This document shows positions 14,233 to 62,591 of a stretch of DNA of 64,000 bases, piece after piece. Under the pieces are notes generated by a model. It did not search any database, was not told where the DNA came from, and was given only the letters and a program-made list of their open reading frames with translations. Made by a program: the position numbers and the translations under genes. This stretch comes from Parabacteroides acidifaciens. Its GTDB lineage: Bacteria > Bacteroidota > Bacteroidia > Bacteroidales > Tannerellaceae. Where the stretch lies: contig NZ_QREV01000020.1 of the NCBI RefSeq assembly GCF_003363715.1, positions 1 through 64,000 of the forward strand. The letters run 5' to 3'. The number at the start of each line of letters is the position of its first letter. The stretch's first letter is position 1.

Positions 14233-14519
14233 GGCCTCGTAGGGGCGGTTCGCGAACCGCCCAAATAGCGACGTTGTCTTAGGGCTGTAAGCCCGGCAGA
14301 TCTCAGCCCAAGGCGTGAGCCTTGGGTTAAGGAAAACGTCTCCCTTCTCCTCTTAGCCCTGTAAGGGCGGCACCGGTAACATCCAGTGTCACAATGTATC
14401 GCCCTTACAGGGCTCGAAGACAGAAGGTGGTCCTCTTTAAACCCAAGGCGTGAGCCTTGGGCTATGATCTGTCGCCCTTACAGGGCTTTGGGCGGTTCGC
14501 GAACCGCCCCTACGAGGCC
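14233..14519. repeat. Nested palindromic repeat element with 30-bp terminal inverted repeats
   Basis: The 376-nt gap between trxB and the GDPD gene is filled by one element. Its ends (14233-14262 and 14490-14519) are perfect 30-bp inverted repeats, and each end contains the 20-bp palindrome GGGCGGTTCGCGAACCGCCC. Inside are two identical hairpins CCCAAGGC-GTGA-GCCTTGGG (14307-14326, 14442-14461), three short hairpins GCCCT-nnn-AGGGC (14356-14368, 14401-14413, 14474-14486) and GGGCT-GTA-AGCCC (14282-14294). No gene is present. Such G+C-rich nested palindromes resemble REP/BIME-type elements. Confidence 0.8.
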
Positions 14520-23117: not shown

Positions 23118-23637
23118 ATTTAAAAGAGGCTTATTGTATAAAACGCATTTTTTAGGCTAAAAAAAGCTCCGAAACAAAACAAATGTTAATCCGCTTTTCA
23201 GACGTCAAAAAGGGACTTTTCCCTCTTTTTTGAGCGTTTTCCGTAATTATGACCGTCCTCTTTGCCATTACGACCGTGCTAATAGGCAGTGCACTCGGCA
23301 CCTCGCGAAGATTATGACGGTCGTAATGGAGATTATGACGGTCGTAATTGAAAAGAGGACCGTTTTCATGGCAAAAAAGCACCTGAATTTCCTTGGGATA
23401 TTTGGAACGCCGTCCGTTTTGTTTTCAAATATTCGATTCTCCGGGAGTTAAGGTTTATCACTTTGTCGGTGTTTTTGGTTTTTGCCAATCAAATTGCACA
23501 CTTTTCAGGATGACCTCGGCAGCTCATTCCGTCCGATGTCAGCCGGAATGGGTAAAACCATGAAAAGAGTCAATCCGAAATCGATCAAGATTTCGAATGA
23601 AATAGAAAAACGGTCGGAGAAGGGGGATATTGTATAT
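23118..23637 (+). repeat. Dispersed element, copy III (type A core)
   Basis: Nearly the same sequence as 591-1122: it starts AAAAGAGGCTTATTGTATAA and ends GAAATAGAAAAACGG, a G-run and ATATTGTATAT. The core (23230-23372) has two adjacent 21-nt units GATTATGACGGTCGTAAT and an inverted ATTACGACCGT, flanked by complementary ATGACCGTCCTCTTT and AAAGAGGACCGT. Its right end runs directly into the 66-bp direct repeat at 23638. The short open frames here encode heptad-like peptides and are not credible genes. Confidence 0.75.
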
Positions 23638-23703
23638 TTTAACATATTTGAAACCACTCCCGGAACATCCGTATATACACGGATTTAATCTTTCCCGACT
23701 GTA
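23638..23703 (+). repeat. 66-bp direct repeat flanking the Abi island, left copy
   Basis: 63 of 66 positions match 25734-25799. It starts TTTAACATATTTGAAACC and includes ACTCCCGGAACATCCGTATA. The two copies enclose 2,030 bp with the Abi gene and gene fragments. Confidence 0.85.
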
Positions 23704-23873: not shown

Positions 23874-23904
23874 TTTGTGGTTTAAGAGAAAAGTTCTATA
23901 TTTG
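23874..23904 (+). promoter_or_regulatory. Strong promoter of the first Abi locus
   Basis: TTTG (23874-23877), 19 nt, then TATATTTG (23897-23904) is a textbook Bacteroidota promoter. It would start a transcript at about 23910, 60 nt before the Abi start codon. The second Abi gene has the same arrangement with the same 19-nt spacing. Confidence 0.8.
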
Positions 23905-23909
23905 CAACC

Positions 23910-23961
23910 AATAGAACCTGCCAAGCCTCTTAACAATGCTCAAATAGGCAGGTCGTTTTTT
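23910..23961 (+). ncRNA. Putative Abi-associated stem-loop RNA 1
   Basis: ACCTGCC (23916-23922) and GGCAGGT (23947-23953) form a perfect 7-bp stem around a 24-nt loop that contains GCTCA near its 3' side. CG and six T residues (23956-23961) follow, so transcription may often end here, giving a roughly 50-nt RNA; read-through would reach the Abi ATG 18 nt after the stem. The gene at 34656-35552 has a leader with the same plan (8-bp stem, 26-nt loop, GCTCA, U-tract, 19 nt to ATG). Whether it is a free RNA partner or an attenuator cannot be told from sequence. Confidence 0.55.
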
Positions 23962-23971
23962 ATATATACCT

Positions 23972-24871
23972 ATGAAACAGCCATTTACCAAAGTTTTCTA
24001 TACTTCCCAACAACATATTACTCTTTTAAAGAGCAGAGGTTTAGTAATAACGGACGAGCGAAAAGCGGCAGATTATTTGTACAATATCGGCTACTTCCGT
24101 TTGAGTGCTTATTTTTACCCGTTATTGAAGTTGCCAAAAGAGCAACACCAATACAAGTCGGGTGCGACTTTTATCCAAGCATTGGATATGTACCGTTTTG
24201 ACCGCAAATTGCGGTTGCTTCTATTCAATGAAATCGAAAAAATAGAAATAGCTATCCGCAGTTGCATGACCAATGCCGCCAGCGAGTATTTCAATGACCT
24301 GTTTTGGATTACCAACCCTGCCTATTTCTACAATATGCAGAATTTCCAGTACACACAAGATACGATAGATGCCGAACTGAAAAAATCGAAAGAAGATTTC
24401 ATCCTGCATTTCCAGTCAGCCTATACCGATAGTTATCCGCCTGCATGGATGATTGCCGAGATATTGCCGTTAGGTATGCTTTGCCGCATCTATACCAATT
24501 TGAAGGACAATGTGATCAAGAAACGGATTGCGCAACATTTCGGTTTGCAAGTTCCGGTATTCAGTTCATGGATCGTGATTTTGGCTGGTTTGCGTAATAT
24601 GTGTTGCCACCATTGTCGTACATGGAATAGGGAACTGGCGGTTATCACGACCGAACCCCGCCGGACACAATTCGGCTGGATAAATTCTTCACGGACGGAC
24701 AAGCGTAGGATGTACTACCGCATTTGCATGATACGTTATTTCCTTTTTACGGTATCACCCGGCAATACATTCGAGGATAAGCTAAAGGCACTGTTAGCCG
24801 CCTATCCGAATATTGATACCCGTGCGATGGGCTTTCCCGTTGGTTGGGAAAACGAGGATATTTGGAAATAG
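23972..24871 (+). CDS. Abi-family (Abi_2, AbiD/AbiF-like) HEPN protein 1
   Basis: The 299-residue protein is a member of the Abi_2 family of abortive-infection proteins, which carry a HEPN ribonuclease fold. Seen: an N-terminal LLKSRGLVITDERKAADYL, then YFRLSAYFYPLLK, the conserved DRKLRLLLFNEIEKIEIAIR helix (in part), and the HEPN motif R208-N-M-C-C-H213 followed by HCRTWNR. The C-terminus IDTRAMGFPVGWENEDIWK is almost identical to the second Abi protein, while the rest is clearly diverged. The expected role is RNA cleavage that shuts down infected cells, normally held in check by a partner. It has its own promoter and stem-loop leader and sits inside an island bounded by direct repeats. Homologues of the AbiF type have been reported, as I recall, to act with a small RNA antitoxin. 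Confidence 0.88.
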   Translation: MKQPFTKVFYTSQQHITLLKSRGLVITDERKAADYLYNIGYFRLSAYFYPLLKLPKEQHQYKSGATFIQALDMYRFDRKLRLLLFNEIEKIEIAIRSCMTNAASEYFNDLFWITNPAYFYNMQNFQYTQDTIDAELKKSKEDFILHFQSAYTDSYPPAWMIAEILPLGMLCRIYTNLKDNVIKKRIAQHFGLQVPVFSSWIVILAGLRNMCCHHCRTWNRELAVITTEPRRTQFGWINSSRTDKRRMYYRICMIRYFLFTVSPGNTFEDKLKALLAAYPNIDTRAMGFPVGWENEDIWK

Positions 24872-25733: not shown

Positions 25734-25799
25734 TTTAACATATTTGAAACCACTCCCGGAACATCCGTATATACATGGATTTAATCTTTCCCAATTGTA
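25734..25799 (+). repeat. 66-bp direct repeat flanking the Abi island, right copy
   Basis: 63 of 66 positions match 23638-23703. It lies just upstream of the TACCTTTG promoter box (25818-25825) of the NigD-like paralogue, so the duplicated segment may once have been that gene's upstream region. Confidence 0.85.
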
Positions 25800-31515: not shown

Positions 31516-33549
31516 ATGGAGCGGTGCTGTATGAAAGAGAGGCATATATACGTAAAAGGGGTGTTGATCGTTTTTTGTCTGTTCCTGACGGATCTATACG
31601 GATCTTGCAGGACTGATGGGAAAACGGATGATGCGGGTGAGAGGCTCAAGGCTTTGTATGAATTGTCCCGGCAAAACTGGGAGACCCCGATGGAAGTGCC
31701 CTATCTGAAATCATTGGTAGAGCTTGCCGGAGAAGTCGATTCAATGGGATATTATTACAGCGCCCTTTCCTCATTGGGGCGTTATTATTGTAATATCAAC
31801 CGGTTGGATAGCCTGACCTATTGGGGCAATATGGTCGATTCCGTGACAAAAGCACGCCGGGAAACCCCTCTGGCAAAATTCGATTTTCTGAATTATTACT
31901 GCCGGTATTATCTGATTAACGGAGAATATGAATTGGCGATGAATGAGGCTGTGATGCTTCAGATGTTGTCCAAGGAAAAGAATAATATGACGGGCTTGAT
32001 ATCCAGTAATGAATATTTGGGCCTGGTTTATTTGCTGATCGGACGGGACAGCGATGCGGTGACTGCTTTCGAGGAAGCGTTGGACCTGTTGAAAACAAAA
32101 AGCAAGCCGGATTATGAACTTCAGATTATCCCCTATCTGCTGATCGCCTATTTGCATCTTGACGAGTTGGATCATGTGAAGTCGACTCTTGCCCGTTTCG
32201 AAGAATCGTTGCAGAAAATTGAAAGCTATAAGTCTGATATTAGGGAAAATTATCCGATTAAGGCCAAAAAGTGCTTGCTGTATGCCAATTATCTTAATTT
32301 GTATGTGGCGGAAAAGAATCTTCCGAAAGCGCGTGAAACCGTAAGCCTTTTGCCTTCTTATATGGATGAAAGCATGGGGCCGGATGTTACGTCCGTATAT
32401 GATTTGGCGATGGCCCGCTATTATTTCTTTATCAAAGATTATCCGCAGGCGCTCCGGGAGATCGATAAAGTGCTTGCTGTCGATTATTCGTCCGAACCGC
32501 TGAAGCTGAAAGTCGATATCCTGAAAGCCGCCGGAAGGACGGATGAGGCGTTGAAACAGTATGCCGAATTGCTGTCGCTGGTCGAGCAAACGAATGTGAC
32601 GGCTTTCACCCGCCAATTGAACCAGCTTCGTATGCTGCACGACCTGAACGACAAGAAAATGCAGGAACAGAAACTGCTTTATCAGAAACGGCAACTTTCC
32701 GAGAAGCAGCTACAGCTTACGGCCTCTATTCTTGTGTCCTGCATACTGTTGGTATTGCTGTATGTCTTATTCCGCTATTCCAATCGTACTCGTAAATTAA
32801 AGAACGATCTCCAAGTCGAGCGCGAGACGTTGATCGAAACCACCGAAAGCCTGCGTGTGGCTAAAGAACAGGCGGAGGAATCCAACCGCCTGAAAACGTC
32901 GTTTGTCGCCAATATAAGCCATGAGATACGGACGCCGCTGAACGCGATTGTCGGGTTTGCCGATCTGCTGCAAGATGCCGATGAGGCCGAGCGGAACGAG
33001 TATCTCAAAATAATCAAGAACAACACCGATATGTTGCTCGGGCTTGTGAATGACGTGTTAGACCTGTCGCGGCTCGAATCGGATTCTTTCAGTGTCATAC
33101 TGGAAGATTGCGACCTGTCCGAATGTTGCCAGAATGCACAGGAGAGAATCAGGCATCGGGTGCAGCCGGGTGTCAAGTTGGGCTTTACCGCTTCGGATGA
33201 TCATTTCATCCTGAAAACCGATGATTTGCGCTTACAACAATTGCTAAACAACCTGTTGTCGAACGCCGTTAAATTTACCGGGCAGGGAGAAATCAACCTC
33301 GACTATCGTGTCGACCGGGAGAATCGGCAGGTTGTCTTTACCGTCACCGATACGGGATGCGGCATTCCGTTGGATAAGCAGGAAGTCATTTTCGACCGCT
33401 TCGCAAAGGTGAATGAATTTATCCCCGGGGCAGGCTTGGGATTGCCTATTGCCCGGACGATCGCTATCCGCCTGGGCGGGACGCTGACAGTCGATCCCGA
33501 TTACGACAAAGGGGCGCGTTTCATCTTCGTCCATCCGTTTGGAGAGTAG
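31516..33549 (+). CDS. Sensor histidine kinase with N-terminal helical-repeat sensor
   Basis: The 677-residue membrane kinase has no receiver domain. A signal/anchor segment (about 9-30, ending YGSC, possibly a lipobox) leads to a TPR-like helical sensor region (about 35-390), one transmembrane helix at about 400-421 (LTASILVSCILLVLLYVLF) and a coiled stretch. HisKA follows with His469 in NISHEIRTPLNAIVGF, then the ATPase domain with NLLSNAVKFT, DTGCGIP and GLGLPIA. The ATG at 31516 lies 11 nt after TATCTTTG (31497-31504); ATG 31531 is an alternative. No response regulator gene is adjacent, so its partner is elsewhere. The TPR part suggests a cytoplasmic- or periplasm-facing protein-binding sensor of the kind common in Bacteroidales. 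Confidence 0.9.
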   Translation: MERCCMKERHIYVKGVLIVFCLFLTDLYGSCRTDGKTDDAGERLKALYELSRQNWETPMEVPYLKSLVELAGEVDSMGYYYSALSSLGRYYCNINRLDSLTYWGNMVDSVTKARRETPLAKFDFLNYYCRYYLINGEYELAMNEAVMLQMLSKEKNNMTGLISSNEYLGLVYLLIGRDSDAVTAFEEALDLLKTKSKPDYELQIIPYLLIAYLHLDELDHVKSTLARFEESLQKIESYKSDIRENYPIKAKKCLLYANYLNLYVAEKNLPKARETVSLLPSYMDESMGPDVTSVYDLAMARYYFFIKDYPQALREIDKVLAVDYSSEPLKLKVDILKAAGRTDEALKQYAELLSLVEQTNVTAFTRQLNQLRMLHDLNDKKMQEQKLLYQKRQLSEKQLQLTASILVSCILLVLLYVLFRYSNRTRKLKNDLQVERETLIETTESLRVAKEQAEESNRLKTSFVANISHEIRTPLNAIVGFADLLQDADEAERNEYLKIIKNNTDMLLGLVNDVLDLSRLESDSFSVILEDCDLSECCQNAQERIRHRVQPGVKLGFTASDDHFILKTDDLRLQQLLNNLLSNAVKFTGQGEINLDYRVDRENRQVVFTVTDTGCGIPLDKQEVIFDRFAKVNEFIPGAGLGLPIARTIAIRLGGTLTVDPDYDKGARFIFVHPFGE

Positions 33550-33569
33550 ATGGGGATTGCTTATCTTTG
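33538..33569 (+). promoter_or_regulatory. Promoter of the DUF3810 gene inside the kinase 3' end
   Basis: TTTG (33538-33541), 20 nt and TATCTTTG (33562-33569) lie 8 nt before the ATG at 33578 and overlap the end of the kinase gene. This decides the start against an upstream in-frame ATG at 33539. Confidence 0.65.
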
Positions 33570-33577
33570 TTGTTAGG

Positions 33578-34639
33578 ATGAAAGGAACGGAATGGATTAA
33601 AAAGATACGGATCCGCTGGATTATATTGGCTGCCGGGCTTGTTCTGGTCTGGTGTGTGCAGGCTTCGCCCGCTGCCGGCGAATGGTATGCGCGAAATGTT
33701 TATCCGTCCGTTTCGTCTTTGTTGTCTCGTTTTTCTTCTTTTTTCCCCTTCTCTGTGGGCGATTGCCTGATCTATGGGAGTATCATCGGCTTGTGCCTGT
33801 ATCCGTTTTATGCCCGTTGGAGAAAGCGTCGATGGGCAGTGATCGCCGGACGGATGGCGGAGTATCTTTTCTGGATCTACCTTTGGTTTTATCTGGCCTG
33901 GGGATTGAACTATTTCAGGAAGGACTTTTTTACTCGGACCGAGATTCCGTATGCCGCTTATTCCGTCGACACTTTCCGCTCATTTCTGTCTGCCTATACC
34001 GATTCGCTGAATGCCTCTTTTGTCCCGGTCGAAGCGATCGACAAGGCGGTCGTTGCAGCGGAGACAAAGAAAGGATATCGGGAGATCGACGGGCGTTTCG
34101 GCCTGGTCCGGCCTGCCGGTTATCTGCGTCCCAAACCGATGCTGATTCCTTCGCTGATGAGCGGCGTAGGCGTGTTGGGTTATATGGGGCCGTTCTTTAC
34201 CGAATACAATCTGAACCCGAAGCTGCTTCCGGTGCAGTATCCGTTTACGTATGCCCACGAGATGGCGCATGTGTTAGGCATATCCAGCGAGGCGGAAGCG
34301 AACTTGTACGGCTTTCTGGTCTGTGCGCGTTCCGAAGTGCCGGAGATCCGTTTTTCCGCTTATTTCGCATTGCTGCCTTATGTGCTGGGCAATGCCTACG
34401 GATTGTTGCCGGAAGAAGAGTTTAACGCCTGGAAAGCAACCATTTCCCCGGAAGTGAAAGACCTCTACAACCGTAAGACGGCCTATTGGCAGTCTTTATA
34501 CAGTCCTTTGATCGGCGAAGTCCAATCCACCGCCTACAACTGGTTCCTGAAAGGCAACAACATCCCCTCCGGCCGCAAGAACTATTCGGAGGTGGTGGCA
34601 TTGCTGATGGCACTGTATAATAATGAGCATAGGGATTGA
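33578..34639 (+). CDS. DUF3810 family membrane protein with HExxH motif
   Basis: The 353-residue protein has three N-terminal transmembrane helices (about 9-25, 45-70, 85-105) followed by a large domain of the DUF3810 family. It carries a zinc-metallopeptidase-like motif YAHEMAHVLGISSEAEANLYG: H-E-x-x-H with a downstream E-A-E that could supply the third ligand. Conserved family text includes LVRPAGYLRPKPMLIPSLMS and GYMGPFFTEYNLNPKL. The family is widespread in Bacteroidota and Firmicutes and is probably a membrane-bound protease, but no substrate is known. It has its own promoter. Confidence 0.8.
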   Translation: MKGTEWIKKIRIRWIILAAGLVLVWCVQASPAAGEWYARNVYPSVSSLLSRFSSFFPFSVGDCLIYGSIIGLCLYPFYARWRKRRWAVIAGRMAEYLFWIYLWFYLAWGLNYFRKDFFTRTEIPYAAYSVDTFRSFLSAYTDSLNASFVPVEAIDKAVVAAETKKGYREIDGRFGLVRPAGYLRPKPMLIPSLMSGVGVLGYMGPFFTEYNLNPKLLPVQYPFTYAHEMAHVLGISSEAEANLYGFLVCARSEVPEIRFSAYFALLPYVLGNAYGLLPEEEFNAWKATISPEVKDLYNRKTAYWQSLYSPLIGEVQSTAYNWFLKGNNIPSGRKNYSEVVALLMALYNNEHRD

Positions 34640-34655
34640 CTGTATCCAGTGATGT

Positions 34656-35552
34656 CTATTTCCAAATATCTTCGTTTTCCCAACCAGCCGGAAAGCCCAT
34701 CGCACGGGTATCTATCGAAGGGTAACGGGTAAGCAAGTCCTTGAACCTTTCTACAAACGAGTGGTTGGGATTGATTATATCCAACAGATAAACGATCATG
34801 CTCAATATGAAATAGACCTGCCGTGTGCCGTTCGCCGGAAGTGTGATGAATGATTTGCGTGGTGAACGTGGCATTAACGGGCGGATGCTAAGTGTCCGAT
34901 TCCATAAGCGGCAATGATGGGCGCAAATGTTACGGATATAAACGATACTGTGCAACCAGGAAGCAAAAACGGTGTCGGGCAACCCGAAATAATCCGCAAT
35001 GCTCCGCTTGGTCTTTCCGGGAAGCAGGTTATTGTATAGAATAGACAGTGTACCGAAAGAAGTTATCTCCATCGTTATCCAACTTGGCGGAAAAGGATCG
35101 GAATACTTGGATTTGAAAGCCGTCACAAATTCCTCGTCGCTGCGCTGGTATTCTTCATCTATTTTTGATAATATCTTGGCATGACGTACCGGATTGTTAA
35201 AATGGGAAGCATCGGCAAACCAATATCCATCCCATTGTGAAGAGAGTATATAGGCGGTCTGTGTGCGCACAGCTACCTCTATTTTTTCCAGCTCCGTAAT
35301 AATCAGCTTGCGAAGCTCACTATCGAACTTGTAGATGTTGTAGGCGGCATCGAATGTGCTGCCGGGCTTGAACAAATGATTTTGCTTGTCTGCCAGCAAA
35401 GGATACCAGTAGCCGCTCAAACGGTAATAACTGATATTGCGTAGCAGGTGTAAGGCTTTGGCTTCGTCCGTGAAAACAAGTCCACGCTGTTTGAGCAAAG
35501 CAATCTGATCCGCAAAAGATATGAGTTGTTTGGGGTAAGAGATTTTAGTCAT
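34656..35552 (-). CDS. Abi-family (Abi_2, AbiD/AbiF-like) HEPN protein 2
   Basis: The 298-residue paralogue of the protein at 23972-24871 shares its layout: LLKQRGLVFTDEAKALHLL, SYYRLSGYWYPLL, a DSELRKLIITELEKIEVAVR helix, and the HEPN motif R207-N-I-C-A-H212 with HCRLWNR. Both catalytic residues are present. Its last 19 residues differ from the first Abi protein at one position, and the DNA of the last 56 nt is about 95% identical although the rest is diverged. It sits alone on the minus strand between the DUF3810 gene and ileS, with no mobile-element remains nearby. Its promoter and stem-loop leader copy the plan of the first locus. The expected role is RNase-based abortive infection or a toxin, by family. 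Confidence 0.88.
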   Translation of the reverse strand: MTKISYPKQLISFADQIALLKQRGLVFTDEAKALHLLRNISYYRLSGYWYPLLADKQNHLFKPGSTFDAAYNIYKFDSELRKLIITELEKIEVAVRTQTAYILSSQWDGYWFADASHFNNPVRHAKILSKIDEEYQRSDEEFVTAFKSKYSDPFPPSWITMEITSFGTLSILYNNLLPGKTKRSIADYFGLPDTVFASWLHSIVYIRNICAHHCRLWNRTLSIRPLMPRSPRKSFITLPANGTRQVYFILSMIVYLLDIINPNHSFVERFKDLLTRYPSIDTRAMGFPAGWENEDIWK

Positions 35553-35560
35553 AGAGGTAT

Positions 35561-35617
35561 AAAAATAAAAGGCTTACCCTGAGCGCGCTGATCTGACGGG
35601 AAGCGGGGTAAGCATGT
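35561..35617 (-). ncRNA. Putative Abi-associated stem-loop RNA 2
   Basis: On the minus strand GCTTACCC (35613-35606) pairs perfectly with GGGTAAGC (35579-35572) around a 26-nt loop ending GCTCA. C and TTTTATTTTT (35570-35561) follow, then the Abi ATG, 19 nt after the stem. A transcript of about 55 nt would result if termination is efficient. It matches putative RNA 1 in stem length, loop length, the GCTCA motif and the distance to the start codon, but not in stem sequence, so pairing seems to be what is conserved. Confidence 0.55.
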
Positions 35618-35622
35618 TGCTG

Positions 35623-35653
35623 CAAAGATAAAACTATTCTCTTGAAATACAAA
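35623..35653 (-). promoter_or_regulatory. Strong promoter of the second Abi locus
   Basis: On the minus strand TTTG (35653-35650), 19 nt and TATCTTTG (35630-35623) form a full Bacteroidota promoter, 10 nt before the stem of the putative RNA. Confidence 0.8.
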
Positions 35654-35811: not shown

Positions 35812-38800
35812 ATGAGTAAGAAATTTGCCGAATACTCGAAGTTTGACTTGTCGAACGTCAATAAAGAGGTGCTGAAGAAATGGCAGGATGGCGACATCTT
35901 CCATAAGAGTCTTGAAATACGTGAAGGACATCCCTCGTTTGTGTTTTATGAAGGACCTCCTTCTGCAAACGGTATGCCCGGTATTCACCACGTGATTGCC
36001 CGTTCGATCAAAGATATTTTCTGTCGTTACAAGACGATGAAAGGATATCTCGTGAACCGCAAAGCCGGATGGGACACACATGGACTGCCGGTAGAGTTAG
36101 GTGTCGAAAAGTCAATGGGTATAACCAAGGAAGATATCGGCAAAAAGATTTCTGTGGCTGAATATAATGCAGCCTGCCGCCGCGACGTGATGAAGTTCAC
36201 GAAGGAGTGGGAGGACTTGACACAGAAAATGGGTTATTGGGTGGATATGGAAAATCCGTATATCACCTATGATAACCGGTATATCGAAACATTGTGGTAC
36301 CTGCTGAAGGAGCTCTATAAGAAAGGGTTGCTCTATAAAGGTTACACCATACAGCCTTATTCGCCGGCTGCCGGGACAGGCCTTAGCTCGCACGAGCTGA
36401 ACCAGCCGGGTTGCTATCGCGACGTGAAGGACACGACTTGTACGGCGCAGTTCCGCATCCTTGACCCGAAACCGGAGATGGCGGAGTTCGGCGATCCGTT
36501 CTTCTTAGCATGGACGACCACTCCCTGGACATTGCCTTCCAACACGGCGCTTTGCGTGGGGCCGAATATCACGTATGTGGCTGTTCAGACTTTCAATCCG
36601 TATACAGGTATGCCGATGACAGTTGTGCTGGCGAAAGATTTGCTGGATGCACATTTCAATCCGAAGGCTGCCGGTTTGGCATTGTCCGATTACAAGCCGG
36701 GCGATAAATTGATTCCGTTTAAAGTTGTAGGCGAGTGGAAAGGTCCGGAATTAGCCGGTATGCACTACGAGCAGCTGATCCCTTGGGTGAATCCGGGAGA
36801 AGGCGCTTTCCGTGTCATCACAGGTGACTATGTGACGGTTGAAGATGGTACGGGTATCGTTCATATCGCCCCGACTTTCGGTGCGGATGACGACCGTGTG
36901 GGAAAAGCAAACGGCGTGCCTCCTTTGATGCTGACCGATAAGGACGGCAACCAGCGTCCGATGGTCGATATGACCGGTAAGTTCTATCTGCTGGAAGACC
37001 TCGATCCGGAGTTCGTACAGACGCGTATGAATGCGGCCGACTATGATCCCTGGCAGGGCAAGTTCGTGAAGAACGCTTACGATCCGGCGAAAGGTGAAAA
37101 AGACGAGACATTAGATATTGAAATATGCATGATGCTGAAGGTGCAGAACCGTGTGTTCCGCATCGAAAAACATGTGCACAACTATCCGCACTGCTGGCGG
37201 ACGGACAAGCCGGTTCTTTACTATCCGTTGGATAGCTGGTTTATCCGCACGACGGCTTGTCGCGAACGGATGATCGAGCTGAACAATACGATCAACTGGA
37301 AGCCGCAGAGCACCGGCACGGGACGTTTCGGCAAATGGCTGGAAAACCTGCAGGACTGGAACCTGAGCCGTAGCCGCTACTGGGGAACTCCGCTGCCTAT
37401 TTGGCGGACGGAAGATGGGGCGGAGGAAATCTGCATCGGTTCGGTTGAAGAACTGTACAATGAAATAGAGAAATCCGTAAAGGCCGGCTTGATGGAGGCT
37501 AATCCGTATAAGGAGCTGAAGTTCAAACCGGGTGAATATACGAAGGAGAACTATGAGAAGATCGACTTGCACCGTCCGTATGTGGACGATGTGATCCTGG
37601 TTTCCGCAAGCGGCAAACCGATGAAGCGCGAGACGGATCTGATCGACGTCTGGTTCGATTCCGGTGCGATGCCGTATGCACAAATCCATTACCCGTTCGA
37701 GAACAAGGATCTGTTTGACGACCGCAAGGTCTATCCGGCCGACTTCATTGCGGAAGGGGTGGACCAGACACGCGGATGGTTCTTCACGCTGCATGCTATC
37801 GCAACGATGGTGTTCGACAGTGTTTCGTATAAAGCAGTTGTCTCCAACGGTCTGGTGCTGGATAAGAACGGCAACAAGATGTCCAAGCGCTTGGGCAACG
37901 CCGTCGATCCGTTCAGTACGATCGAGCAGCATGGTTCCGACCCGCTGCGCTGGTACATGATTACGAATGCATCTCCGTGGGATAACATCAAGTTTGATAT
38001 CGACGGTATCGAAGAGGTTCGCCGTAAGTTCTTCGGCACATTATATAATACTTATTCGTTCTTCGCTCTGTATGCGAACGTCGACGGCTTCGACTATTCA
38101 GAGCCGGATGTGGACTGGAAAGAGCGTCCGGAGATCGACCGCTGGATTCTGTCGTTGCTCAATTCGTTAGTGAAAGATGTGGACGGATTCTTAGATGCGT
38201 ACGAACCGACGCGTGCTGGACGCGCAATCTCCGACTTCGTCAACGACAACCTGAGTAACTGGTATGTGCGTCTGAACCGCCGCCGTTTCTGGGGCGGAGG
38301 CATGACGACCGATAAGCTGTCTGCTTATCAGACGCTGTACACCTGTCTGGAAACTGTTGCCAAGCTGATGGCGCCGATCGCGCCGTTCTATGCCGATCAG
38401 CTGTTCTGCGACCTGATCGCCGCTACCGGACGTGAGACGGTTGCATCTGTTCACCTGTCCGAGTTCCCGGTTTGCAACGAAGCGCTGATCGACAAGGATC
38501 TGGAAGAACGTATGCAGATGGCACAGGACGTTTCGTCTATGGTGCTGGCTCTGCGCCGCAAGGTGAACATCAAGGTGCGCCAGCCGCTGCAGACCATTAT
38601 GGTGCCGGTTGTGGATGCGCATCAGCAGGAAAGCCTCGAGGCGGTGAAAGCCCTGATCTTGAATGAAGTCAATGTGAAAGAACTGAAGTTTGTCGATAAC
38701 GCTGCCGGTATTCTGGTGAAGAAGATCAAACCCGATTTCAAGAAGTTGGGCCCGCGTTATGGCAAGATCATGAAAGCGTTGGCTGCTGCTATCCAGGCAA

Positions 38801-39237
38801 TGAGCCAGGACGAGATCAATGCTTTCGAAAAGGCCGGAACGTTCACGCTAACTGTCGAAGGACAGGAGGCTGTGGTCGAGCGTGCAGACGTGGAAATCAT
38901 CTCCGAAGACATACCGGGCTGGCTGGTTGCCAACGAAGGACGCCTGACGGTCGCACTGGATATCACCGTGACGGAAGAGCTCCGCAAGGAAGGTCTGGCG
39001 CGCGAGTTGGTGAACCGCATCCAGAATTTGCGTAAGAGCAATGGCTTCGACATCACGGATAAGATTTCGGTAACGGTTCTTTCCAACGATGTGACAGATG
39101 AGGCGATCCAGGATTTCAACTCGTATATCGCCAACCAGGTATTGGCTGTGTCAGTGGAGATTACGGATGTGATCAGCGATGCTACGGAACTTGATTTCGA
39201 AGATTTCAAGTTGTCTGTGCGCATTGAAAAAGTATGA
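35812..39237 (+). CDS. ileS: Isoleucyl-tRNA synthetase
   Basis: The 1,141-residue class Ia synthetase charges tRNA-Ile. The HIGH-type motif is GIHH at residues 57-60, and the KMSKR loop is at 689-693. The CP1 editing domain lies between them (for example WTTTPWTLPSNTALCV, and GTGIVHIAPTFGADD). The C-terminal anticodon-binding part follows the FNPFSTIEQ-like DPFSTIEQHGSDPLRW segment. The length and the lack of a C-terminal zinc module fit the eukaryote-like (mupirocin-tolerant) type common in Bacteroidota; that subtype call is inference. It is followed by a separate promoter for the DksA-like gene. Confidence 0.96.
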   Translation: MSKKFAEYSKFDLSNVNKEVLKKWQDGDIFHKSLEIREGHPSFVFYEGPPSANGMPGIHHVIARSIKDIFCRYKTMKGYLVNRKAGWDTHGLPVELGVEKSMGITKEDIGKKISVAEYNAACRRDVMKFTKEWEDLTQKMGYWVDMENPYITYDNRYIETLWYLLKELYKKGLLYKGYTIQPYSPAAGTGLSSHELNQPGCYRDVKDTTCTAQFRILDPKPEMAEFGDPFFLAWTTTPWTLPSNTALCVGPNITYVAVQTFNPYTGMPMTVVLAKDLLDAHFNPKAAGLALSDYKPGDKLIPFKVVGEWKGPELAGMHYEQLIPWVNPGEGAFRVITGDYVTVEDGTGIVHIAPTFGADDDRVGKANGVPPLMLTDKDGNQRPMVDMTGKFYLLEDLDPEFVQTRMNAADYDPWQGKFVKNAYDPAKGEKDETLDIEICMMLKVQNRVFRIEKHVHNYPHCWRTDKPVLYYPLDSWFIRTTACRERMIELNNTINWKPQSTGTGRFGKWLENLQDWNLSRSRYWGTPLPIWRTEDGAEEICIGSVEELYNEIEKSVKAGLMEANPYKELKFKPGEYTKENYEKIDLHRPYVDDVILVSASGKPMKRETDLIDVWFDSGAMPYAQIHYPFENKDLFDDRKVYPADFIAEGVDQTRGWFFTLHAIATMVFDSVSYKAVVSNGLVLDKNGNKMSKRLGNAVDPFSTIEQHGSDPLRWYMITNASPWDNIKFDIDGIEEVRRKFFGTLYNTYSFFALYANVDGFDYSEPDVDWKERPEIDRWILSLLNSLVKDVDGFLDAYEPTRAGRAISDFVNDNLSNWYVRLNRRRFWGGGMTTDKLSAYQTLYTCLETVAKLMAPIAPFYADQLFCDLIAATGRETVASVHLSEFPVCNEALIDKDLEERMQMAQDVSSMVLALRRKVNIKVRQPLQTIMVPVVDAHQQESLEAVKALILNEVNVKELKFVDNAAGILVKKIKPDFKKLGPRYGKIMKALAAAIQAMSQDEINAFEKAGTFTLTVEGQEAVVERADVEIISEDIPGWLVANEGRLTVALDITVTEELRKEGLARELVNRIQNLRKSNGFDITDKISVTVLSNDVTDEAIQDFNSYIANQVLAVSVEITDVISDATELDFEDFKLSVRIEKV

Positions 39238-61556: not shown

Positions 61557-62591
61557 TTATTTCATTAAGAAGACCGGATAATTATCTAAATCATTTCTCA
61601 AAAAGCGGGCCAAAAGCATTGCCTGAATATATGGGATAAGCCCTATCGGTACAGATTCATTTAGATAGGGGTGGATTATTGTCTCTCTTTTTCTCTTTTG
61701 CCAGGCAAGCAGAACCTCTTTTCTAACATCTTCGTCCATTACAATTCCGTTATCTCCGTGTTCAACAAAACCTTTCCCGGAAATTTGTTTGCGATTGATT
61801 AAGGACAGTACTAATCTGTCTGCCAGATAAGCTCGCAACTCTTCCATCATATCTAACGCTAAACTTGCTCTTCCCGGTCGATCGGTATGTAAAAAGCCTA
61901 CATACGGATCAAGTCCTACCGTTTCTAAGGCAGATTGTACTTCGTGATTCAGTAAGGTGTAAACAAATGACAGCAGGGCATTAACCTTATCTTTGGGTGG
62001 CCTTCTGTTTCTCCCGCTAAAAGGAAAATCCTCACATTGCGATATGATCATTTGGTTGAATACAGAGAAATAAGTTGTCGCAGCCTCTCCTTCTATACCT
62101 CTTAATGCGTCGGAGGATTCCGCAACTAAAGCCTGATTCTTAGATCTTTTCAGTTTGTCGGACACGGATAAAAAAAGAGAAAGCTGTTCATTGGAAGAAA
62201 TGTGATCTCTTTTGAAACGATCTATAACTGTTCGGGAATTTGCTATCTTTCCAGCAATGAACAGACGGCTGATCTCTAACGATTTATTTGTGTCATCGGC
62301 AATTCTGTATTGTATTCTTCGTAAAAGGACATTCCCTTTTATCGGACCGGATACTCTCCCTTGGAACTGTCCGTTGGCACTTAGAAAACATAATCCTACA
62401 TTCCTTTCGGCACACATCTTTATTAATGCCGGAGAAGCGCCCATATATCCGAATGTGACGATACCTTCTATATTCAGAACCGGAATTCTGAATATATCTT
62501 TATCCTTTACCCTGATTACTACATTTTCTCCATCTTTAGTCAAATAGGCTTCAGGGGTAGTTACATACAGTGTGTTTAATAGTTTTCTCAT
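61557..62591 (-). CDS. cas1: CRISPR-associated endonuclease Cas1 (type I-C)
   Basis: The 344-residue integrase has the N-terminal beta domain (MRKLLNTLYVTTPEAYLTKD) and a helical catalytic domain. Metal ligands are expected in GIEGEAATTYFSVF (Glu), GLDPYVGFLHTDRPGRASLA (His) and ALDMMEELRAYLADRLVL (acidic residue); all three motifs are present and intact. It inserts new spacers at the leader end together with Cas2, helped by Cas4. It lies 3 nt after cas4. Confidence 0.97.
   Translation of the reverse strand: MRKLLNTLYVTTPEAYLTKDGENVVIRVKDKDIFRIPVLNIEGIVTFGYMGASPALIKMCAERNVGLCFLSANGQFQGRVSGPIKGNVLLRRIQYRIADDTNKSLEISRLFIAGKIANSRTVIDRFKRDHISSNEQLSLFLSVSDKLKRSKNQALVAESSDALRGIEGEAATTYFSVFNQMIISQCEDFPFSGRNRRPPKDKVNALLSFVYTLLNHEVQSALETVGLDPYVGFLHTDRPGRASLALDMMEELRAYLADRLVLSLINRKQISGKGFVEHGDNGIVMDEDVRKEVLLAWQKRKRETIIHPYLNESVPIGLIPYIQAMLLARFLRNDLDNYPVFLMK

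Follow-up and report, generated by a model that had tools for sequence, protein, structure and literature searches.

A covarying RNA hairpin before a Parabacteroides abiF gene: a putative antitoxin that escapes the Rfam abiF model, with solitary relatives in phages

Known AbiF systems and the two modules of the window

The abiF RNA motif is said to come from Weinberg 2017, and PbAbiF with its noncoding RNA (ncRNA) AbiFr reportedly from Zilberzwige-Tal et al. 2025. In the excerpts of published work on which we draw here and below, AbiFr is the ncRNA of PbAbiF in PDB entry 8vz6 (PMC12737573, PMC12373285, PMC12593503), which holds the Prevotellaceae AbiF bound to its ncRNA (PMC12737573, PMC12373285), and AbiF is regarded as ancestral to Cas13 (PMC12737573, PMC12165695). 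In the AbiFCd-RCd22 system of C. difficile, most of the RNA terminates ahead of abiF, and the RNA binds the AbiF protein and neutralizes it in cis and in trans; changes that break its stem lose neutralization, whereas changes that keep the stem retain it (PMC12373285).

The window, i.e. the whole 64,000-nt stretch of Parabacteroides acidifaciens DNA that was analyzed, contains two abiF genes, here called locus 1 and locus 2, and a search of the genome with PF07751 (Abi_2) returned no match beyond their two proteins. Locus 2 is very probably an RNA antitoxin/HEPN ribonuclease toxin module of type III-like organization, in which a single hairpin is both antitoxin and terminator. PbAbiF resembles locus 2 in being an Abi_2/HEPN toxin of equal length and motif with an RNA antitoxin; it differs in that the PbAbiF protein falls within the class-A clade, that of locus 1, while the locus 2 protein lies in the sister clade, which has class-B RNA. 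AbiFCd-RCd22 shares with our model of locus 2 the order of promoter, RNA, terminator and a toxin gene expressed via read-through, although the abiF motif occurs twice in RCd22 and termination there is left to a hairpin of its own (PMC12373285), and locus 2 has one hairpin with the T tail directly after it.

The abiF gene of locus 2 (34656..35552, minus strand), identified by profile, alignment and phmmer, encodes a 298-aa Abi_2/HEPN protein with an RNxxxxH motif, which matches PF07751 at E 2.9e-58 and 197.6 bits (cut-off 25.6). The one solved relative found by phmmer is 8vz6, at E 3.3e-77 over residues 3-298 of the locus 2 protein; judged by this resemblance, which is one of sequence, the protein is AbiF. 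Its HEPN motif reads RNICAH (R207-H212), and the catalytic R and H are retained in all 109 aligned proteins.

The leader of this gene, on the same strand, closely follows the original prediction. A Bacteroidota-type promoter, TTTG-N19-TATCTTTG (35623..35653), an 8-bp stem, a 26-nt loop ending in GCTCA and an ATG placed 19 nt beyond the stem were all confirmed by direct reading and pattern search, the only correction being a promoter-to-stem spacing of 9 nt in place of 10. The 5′ arm GCTTACCC (35613-35606) pairs with the 3′ arm GGGTAAGC (35579-35572) across the loop (35605-35580), and the stem is followed by C-TTTTATTTTT before the ATG at 35552; a T-rich, terminator-like tail (35557..35571, minus strand) lies within the leader directly 3′ of the stem. 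The hairpin (35572..35613, minus strand), which reading, folding, alignment and a covariance model mark as a class-B abiF-type RNA and putative antitoxin, consists of the 8-bp outer stem, a 4-bp inner stem CGCT/AGCG, a 12-nt loop and a 6-nt 3′ bulge CGCTCA. The leader thus has the plan of abiF-type RNAs in the wide sense (outer and inner stem, a loop of 11-12 nt and a 6-nt 3′ bulge, directly before abi), and the locus appears to have the type III layout, with the RNA 5′ of the toxin gene and a terminator between them. It holds one copy of the RNA, with no tandem repeat of the motif; such repeats are common, but not universal, in type III toxin-antitoxin systems.

The Rfam model of abiF RNA, RF03085 (gathering threshold 37 bits), returned no match to the locus 2 leader up to E 10 in a 401-base stretch. 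The leader is therefore not filed under RF03085, and what links it to abiF RNA is its architecture, its position and the sister relation of the two protein clades. As a detector of locus 2, RF03085 was replaced by a class-specific covariance model, R1, built from locus 2 and 21 other leaders; R1 scores the locus 2 leader at 88.6 bits and also catches other classes, mainly C. Single-sequence folding proved too weak to arbitrate the leader structure either way. It is only mildly better than shuffles at locus 2 (z -2.15, with 5 of 200 shuffles as good; with other ends, z -1.21 and 30 of 200) and at locus 1 (z -1.22, 21 of 200), and the case rests on comparison across leaders.

Hairpins of this type might have been equally common before random genes, an objection foreseen in the original prediction, and in the DNA searched they are not. 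The window and 20 other stretches of the genome, 180,142 nt altogether, contain 125 ORFs that begin with ATG and reach 150 aa. Six of these have a similar-sized upstream hairpin, and two of the six have in addition a T-rich tail and a promoter; these are the two abi genes, so that the full set of elements occurs in 2 of 125 ORFs and only at abi genes. In 148,935 nt from the loci of 14 relatives, 4 of 118 ORFs qualify, namely three abi genes and one other gene, by a filter strict enough (G-U pairs disallowed, each frame taken from its first ATG) to miss most abi leaders of the relatives.

Locus 1 lies on the plus strand. A pattern search found its promoter, TTTG-N19-TATATTTG, at 23874..23904; its class-A leader (23916..23953) matches RF03085 at 59.8 bits (23917-23953); and its abiF gene (23972..24871) encodes a 299-aa protein that, by profile and alignment, is 43% identical to that of locus 2. 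The N19 promoter is followed by 11 nt, a 7-bp stem with a 24-nt loop and 18 nt to the ATG at 23972, so the agreement in distances between the loci, described beforehand as almost base for base, holds to within 1-2 nt and is not exact. Locus 1, as a member of RF03085, shares its general layout with locus 2: an outer and an inner stem, a loop of 11-12 nt and a bulge of 6 nt on the 3′ side. However, the two leaders belong to different classes, A and B, and their inner stems, loops and bulges differ as well: CGCT/AGCG, a TCCCGTAAGAAC-type loop and the bulge CGCTCA in class B, and AGC/GCT, CTCTYAACRAT and CAAATC in class A. The idea that the differing stem bases of the two loci reflect one conserved structure consequently needs to be divided, since compensation holds within class B and the two loci are not one compensated RNA.

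Locus 1 is flanked by two NigD-like genes, and a direct repeat of ~60 nt, noted by eye at about 23636-23697 and 25735-25797, flanks the stretch that carries it, with the NigD-like genes outside. Elsewhere in the window, an inverted pair of Acido-Lenti-1 RNAs (RF01687; 14281-14326, minus strand, 55.3 bits, and 14442-14487, plus strand, 46.1 bits; ~115 nt apart) adjoins a pyridine-nucleotide oxidoreductase gene. A Cas1 match (PF01867, E 7e-103) at 61557-62591 on the minus strand points to a probable CRISPR locus near the window's end.

Leader classes and AbiF clades

Abi genes were collected from 31 named loci and from two genome searches, one of the order (393 genomes, 57 with a match) and one of the family (123 genomes, 43 with a match), of which the stronger and longer matches were used; the order was taken as Bacteroidales, going by the named relatives. 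Once repeats of the window loci, pieces shorter than 180 aa or beginning beyond position 40 of the profile, two rows identical to others and one startless row had been removed, the 132 HMM hits gave 112 distinct abi genes. A leader of the same plan was found at 88 of the 112, and comprised 22 of class A (RF03085-like), 25 of class B (locus 2), 21 of class C, 10 of class C2 (a C frame with an A-like loop) and 10 of class D; the class regexes were widened once, after the sequences had been seen, and L024 (A) and L060 (C) were labeled by hand after a regex miss. No leader was recognized by the patterns within 170 nt of the other 24 genes, an upper figure because one of them, L058, carries an R1 match 126 nt upstream. 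Loss of the catalytic residues in the genes with no recognized leader was ruled out by retention of the motif R and H in all 24. The occurrence of Abi_2 genes without the stem, which the original prediction had counted as evidence against itself, is thus borne out in part, at no more than 24 of the 112.

In a sample of 20 loci, RF03085 at gathering matched all 3 of class A and none of the remaining 17. That classes B, C and D escape the Rfam model in the tested loci is new here; Weinberg 2017 or Zilberzwige-Tal 2025 may already describe class B or the phage copies discussed below.

The structure of class B is borne out by its alignment (25 genes, 22 distinct leaders), in which all 264 pair cells are standard pairs and 22 cells, in six pairs, are changed on both sides. 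The numbers of paired cells and doubly changed cells and the covariation score were each reached by 0 of 500 shuffles; less telling were the doubly changed pairs (6 of 500) and further pair types (176 of 500). Pairing falls to 26-54% when the partner is slid by 1-3 columns. L011 and L012 have CG in place of GC in the inner stem, and loop, inner stem and bulge otherwise vary little. All 25 class-B leaders carry a TAnnTTTG box 7-10 nt 5′ of the stem, as compared with 1.9% of random 36-nt windows, and in 21 of the 25 a TTG lies 17-23 nt farther upstream.

Such a leader could in principle act as a cis attenuator only, that is, an intrinsic terminator of the 5′ UTR that limits abi expression and yields no RNA acting in trans. 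The T-rich tail directly after the stem and the ATG at a median of 17-20 nt from the stem in all four classes are consistent with this, as is the finding that the C. difficile leader also acts in cis (PMC12373285). We consider it quite improbable all the same, as conservation of loop, inner stem and bulge is not required for attenuation, and these are the parts that vary little in class B and differ by clade; in addition, RNAs of the same kind occur without abi in viral contigs and some genomes of the order.

The relationship of RNA to protein was assessed on a tree of 109 rows, made up of 108 of the 112 abi proteins (four below 240 aa omitted) and PbAbiF, by a quick method with SH-aLRT support only and no bootstrap. 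Leader class changes 14 times on this tree, against a shuffled mean of 67.3, with 0 of 200 shuffles as low, and classes A, B, C and D are each tied to one or few AbiF clades. Class A and PbAbiF form one group (support 100), save for the far Verrucomicrobia row L024, and their clade is sister to that of class B (support 92); class D is likewise one group (support 100). Within the A+B clade, RNA is absent in 2 of 46 genes (PbAbiF not counted), i.e. the near-copies L015 and L016, which lie on a long branch in the class-B group and have a promoter-like box and no RNA; the other 22 genes with no recognized leader fall outside that clade. Six protein positions distinguish A from B at 80% or more (19 A rows, 25 B rows).

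Because related sequences share labels by descent, the match of class to clade is evidence of co-inheritance, not of specificity. Cognate specificity between the RNAs and proteins of the window's two modules is plausible and would be expected, given that class B is distinct from the Rfam abiF RNA and tied to one AbiF clade. Class C2 is scattered on the tree (8 changes), and the occurrence of A-like loops in C frames within one clade (L050/L018) suggests that frame and bulge, not loop, may carry specificity.

Proximity to the start codon and the tracking of protein clade would also suit a protein-binding site, in DNA or mRNA, through which AbiF represses its own synthesis with no antitoxin involved. 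This we regard as very improbable indeed. The solved relative holds a separate RNA molecule, one per monomer (PMC12737573); in L068 (class A) and L073 (class B), one toxin gene is preceded by a tandem pair of abiF-type RNAs, with a separate promoter box for each; and copies of the RNA without the gene occur.

We infer for the antitoxin module at locus 2 a course of transcription, termination, binding, neutralization and anti-phage action as follows. RNA polymerase would start at the TTTG/TAnnTTTG promoter just 5′ of the hairpin, and most transcripts would end at the T-rich tail to give a short RNA of ~45-60 nt, with occasional read-through past the hairpin providing the toxin mRNA. The short RNA would bind the AbiF dimer and hold its RNase off, and loss of the RNA during infection would free the AbiF RNase.

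Insertion and decay of the module in bacterial genomes

Locus 2 is bordered by two plus-strand genes identified from neighbor annotation, a DUF3810 protein gene at its left edge (33539..34639) and a class I tRNA synthetase gene at its right edge (35812..39237), the latter presumably ileS, going by family and length. DUF3810 and the start of the synthetase gene both fall within the fetched stretch in 13 of 29 relatives of the genus; in none of the 13 does an abi gene lie between them, and there the two adjoin. The gap between BLAST ends is 90-196 nt in 10 of the 13 and 336, 750 and 1001 nt in the others, as compared with 1176 nt here. The locus 2 unit is thus an insertion between DUF3810 and ileS at a site that is empty in relatives. 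A similar broken copy (pieces of 96% and 92% identity) lies in a 10.8-kb stretch of Bacteroides stercorirosoris, in which neither the DUF3810 nor the synthetase neighbor was found. That the leader travels with the gene, as originally proposed from the unrelated surroundings of the two loci, is upheld by its presence at 88 of the 112 genes, by the tracking of clade by class and by insertion of the unit at a site empty in 13 of 13.

The class-B covariance model R1 has matches in 38 of 393 genomes of the order and 23 of 123 of the family. Of the 63 different matches, 32 stand before a long abi match and 13 before a remnant; 17 have no abi match within 1.4 kb, and one is followed by a contig end. 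Among the 32, L152 and L167 are interrupted, and L157 and L176 stand in tandem before a single gene; L144, with no abi match, may by eye hold a remnant missed by the profile. One genome, G292, has two R1-type RNAs and no abi match. Loss of the toxin first is what an antitoxin role predicts, and chance decay could also produce it.

RF03085 matched 20 of the 393 order genomes, 17 of them over gathering, and five genomes are common to the R1 and RF03085 lists; 33 of the 38 order genomes with an R1 match have no RF03085 match, strict filters having been applied in both searches. The stretch 1501-1700 of L168 holds two RNAs no more than ~150 nt apart, one a decayed class-B copy and the other class-A-like, and no abi gene was found with them. 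Genome G326 (L436, L451, L452) has three RF03085 RNAs with promoter-like boxes, two without an abi match in the fetched DNA and one with a short remnant only.

Solitary RNAs in viruses and phages

Exact core patterns run over 2.9 million viral contigs (IMG/VR) occur in at least 190: 57 with the core of class A, 7 of B, 5 of C, at least 120 of C2 and 1 of D. Among the 190 matches listed, abi follows in eight, and 182 have no abi in the fetched DNA, nine of these having less than 400 nt left downstream; class B contributes six of the orphans and class C four. The 182 listed orphans represent 124 distinct core-plus-arms forms, 30 of which lie within 500 nt of a tRNA gene. Of 40 viral records hand-picked from the 190 and searched whole with PF07751, four already known to hold abi matched, and none of the 36 orphan records, which may be fragments, did so; nor did any of five annotated phage genomes, that of Arthrobacter phage Mimi included. 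Mimi itself was rejected as a carrier, its BLAST match lying below RF03085 gathering.

The outer stems of the orphans, which are free of the search pattern, still pair and covary. In 67 distinct C2 orphans among the matches listed, six pairs lie outside the search pattern; 381 of their 402 cells pair, and 83 double changes occur. None of 500 shuffles reached the observed number of paired cells, that of double changes or the covariation score, and 24 of 500 reached the number of doubly changed pairs. Column pair 9-38 of these orphans reads GC in 30, CG in 28, AU in 4 and UA in 3. At least five consecutive outer pairs form in 23 of 45 distinct class-A forms (shuffled mean 7.6, maximum 15); the same test gave 4 for the six class-B orphans, against a shuffle maximum of 4.

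Searched with A-type queries at an E limit of 1, annotated phages yielded 4 and 68 records, figures that include duplicates, near-copies, weak matches and some matches under annotated genes. They comprise Acinetobacter phage Acj61, Synechococcus phages S-CREM1 and S-SZBM1, phages of Aeromonas, Salicola, Arthrobacter, Roseobacter and Sulfurimonas, and 53 mycobacteriophage records, and class-B and class-C queries matched no annotated isolated phage. RF03085 matched at gathering 16 of 17 A/C2 loci in one viral/phage set, LittleE included, and 0 of 3 B/C loci; scores were 58.0 bits for Acj61, 55.7 for S-SZBM1, 50.1 for PZL-Ah8 and 49.9 for LittleE. The abiF sRNA of S-CREM1 is in print, with three phage genomes in Rfam (PMC9964418), and the excerpt that gives this account contains no decoy proposal; we found no other printed phage copy.

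A single recurrent partner gene downstream of the orphans was ruled out. An ORF of at least 60 aa lies within 400 nt in 149 of the 182 listed orphans, and their 125 distinct proteins fall into 100 clusters, the largest of six. PHROGs searches of 10 orphan neighbors identified a terminase beside L193 and, next to L187, a weak match to tail; for the remaining eight there was either no hit or none with a named function. In L191 (2184-2971), an abiF-type RNA has 21 tRNA genes and a permuted tmRNA around it, and in L222 (7820-8128) a permuted tmRNA begins 6 nt past the RNA end. The viral contigs L194, L196, L199, L204, L206, L207 and L213 have an abiF core with a shortened outer stem, which runs into a downstream stretch that is similar by eye and unnamed by Rfam at gathering. 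The plasmid search returned one record, pPP10 of Persicobacter (NZ_AP025302.1; L455 2501-2568), in which abi is replaced, a class-B hairpin lying ~20 nt before a GIY-YIG nuclease gene; PF07751 has no match on this plasmid, and the GIY-YIG gene may represent a further nuclease governed by an RNA of this type.

Solitary viral copies of host immune RNA known as Racrs (RNA anti-CRISPRs) inhibit in tests, and a phage mimic of an antitoxin RNA (Blower 2012) is cited in the same work (PMC10651486). Both are precedents for the phage abiF orphans, although inhibition has been shown for Racrs and the orphans are known from their sequences, and the RNA mimicked here would be an AbiF antitoxin. By this analogy, the orphans may be RNA decoys that occupy host AbiF and so block abortive infection, a proposal that we hold with neither more nor less confidence than its opposite. 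Taken jointly with it, and put at the same even balance, is the suggestion that the decoys escaped their toxins and spread in unrelated phages, partly inside tRNA/tmRNA clusters; the carriers include T4-like Acj61, T7-like Aeromonas phage PZL-Ah8, S-SZBM1, S-CREM1, mycobacteriophages such as LittleE, and viral contigs with A, B, C or C2 cores. The conserved core, the covarying stems, the lack of a partner or recurrent downstream gene and the spread over unrelated phages are the grounds for the decoy proposal; counting against it, core conservation is built into the search, and hairpins that serve processing of tRNA clusters are also possible.

The phage copies could alternatively be remnants of lost abi genes, or processing or termination hairpins of tRNA clusters unrelated to AbiF, a possible explanation that we rate on the doubtful side. 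A tRNA gene lies within 500 nt of the RNA in 54 of the 190 listed contigs (within 15 nt in 41), on the same strand in 53 of the 54; toxin-gene remnants do follow the RNAs in bacterial genomes; and the failure of the class B and C queries to match an isolated phage also favors this explanation. However, 154 of the 190 listed copies (eight of them with abi) have no tRNA gene in the fetched DNA or one more than 500 nt away, and the core is the same one found before abi genes. The pairing and covariation of outer stems independent of the search pattern likewise argue against it, as does the absence of Abi_2 from the whole orphan records and annotated phage genomes described above.

RNA antitoxins of AbiF appear to fall into several clade-bound classes, mostly missed by the Rfam model, and this genome, whose two putative pairs differ in class, offers a test bed for the specificity of RNA-protein recognition. 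If the phage orphans are decoys, they would constitute an RNA-based counter-defense against a Cas13 precursor, carried by isolated, growable phages. The diversity of classes A, B, C and D in bacteria would then reflect an arms race, in which the lock has been changed against phage-borne keys.
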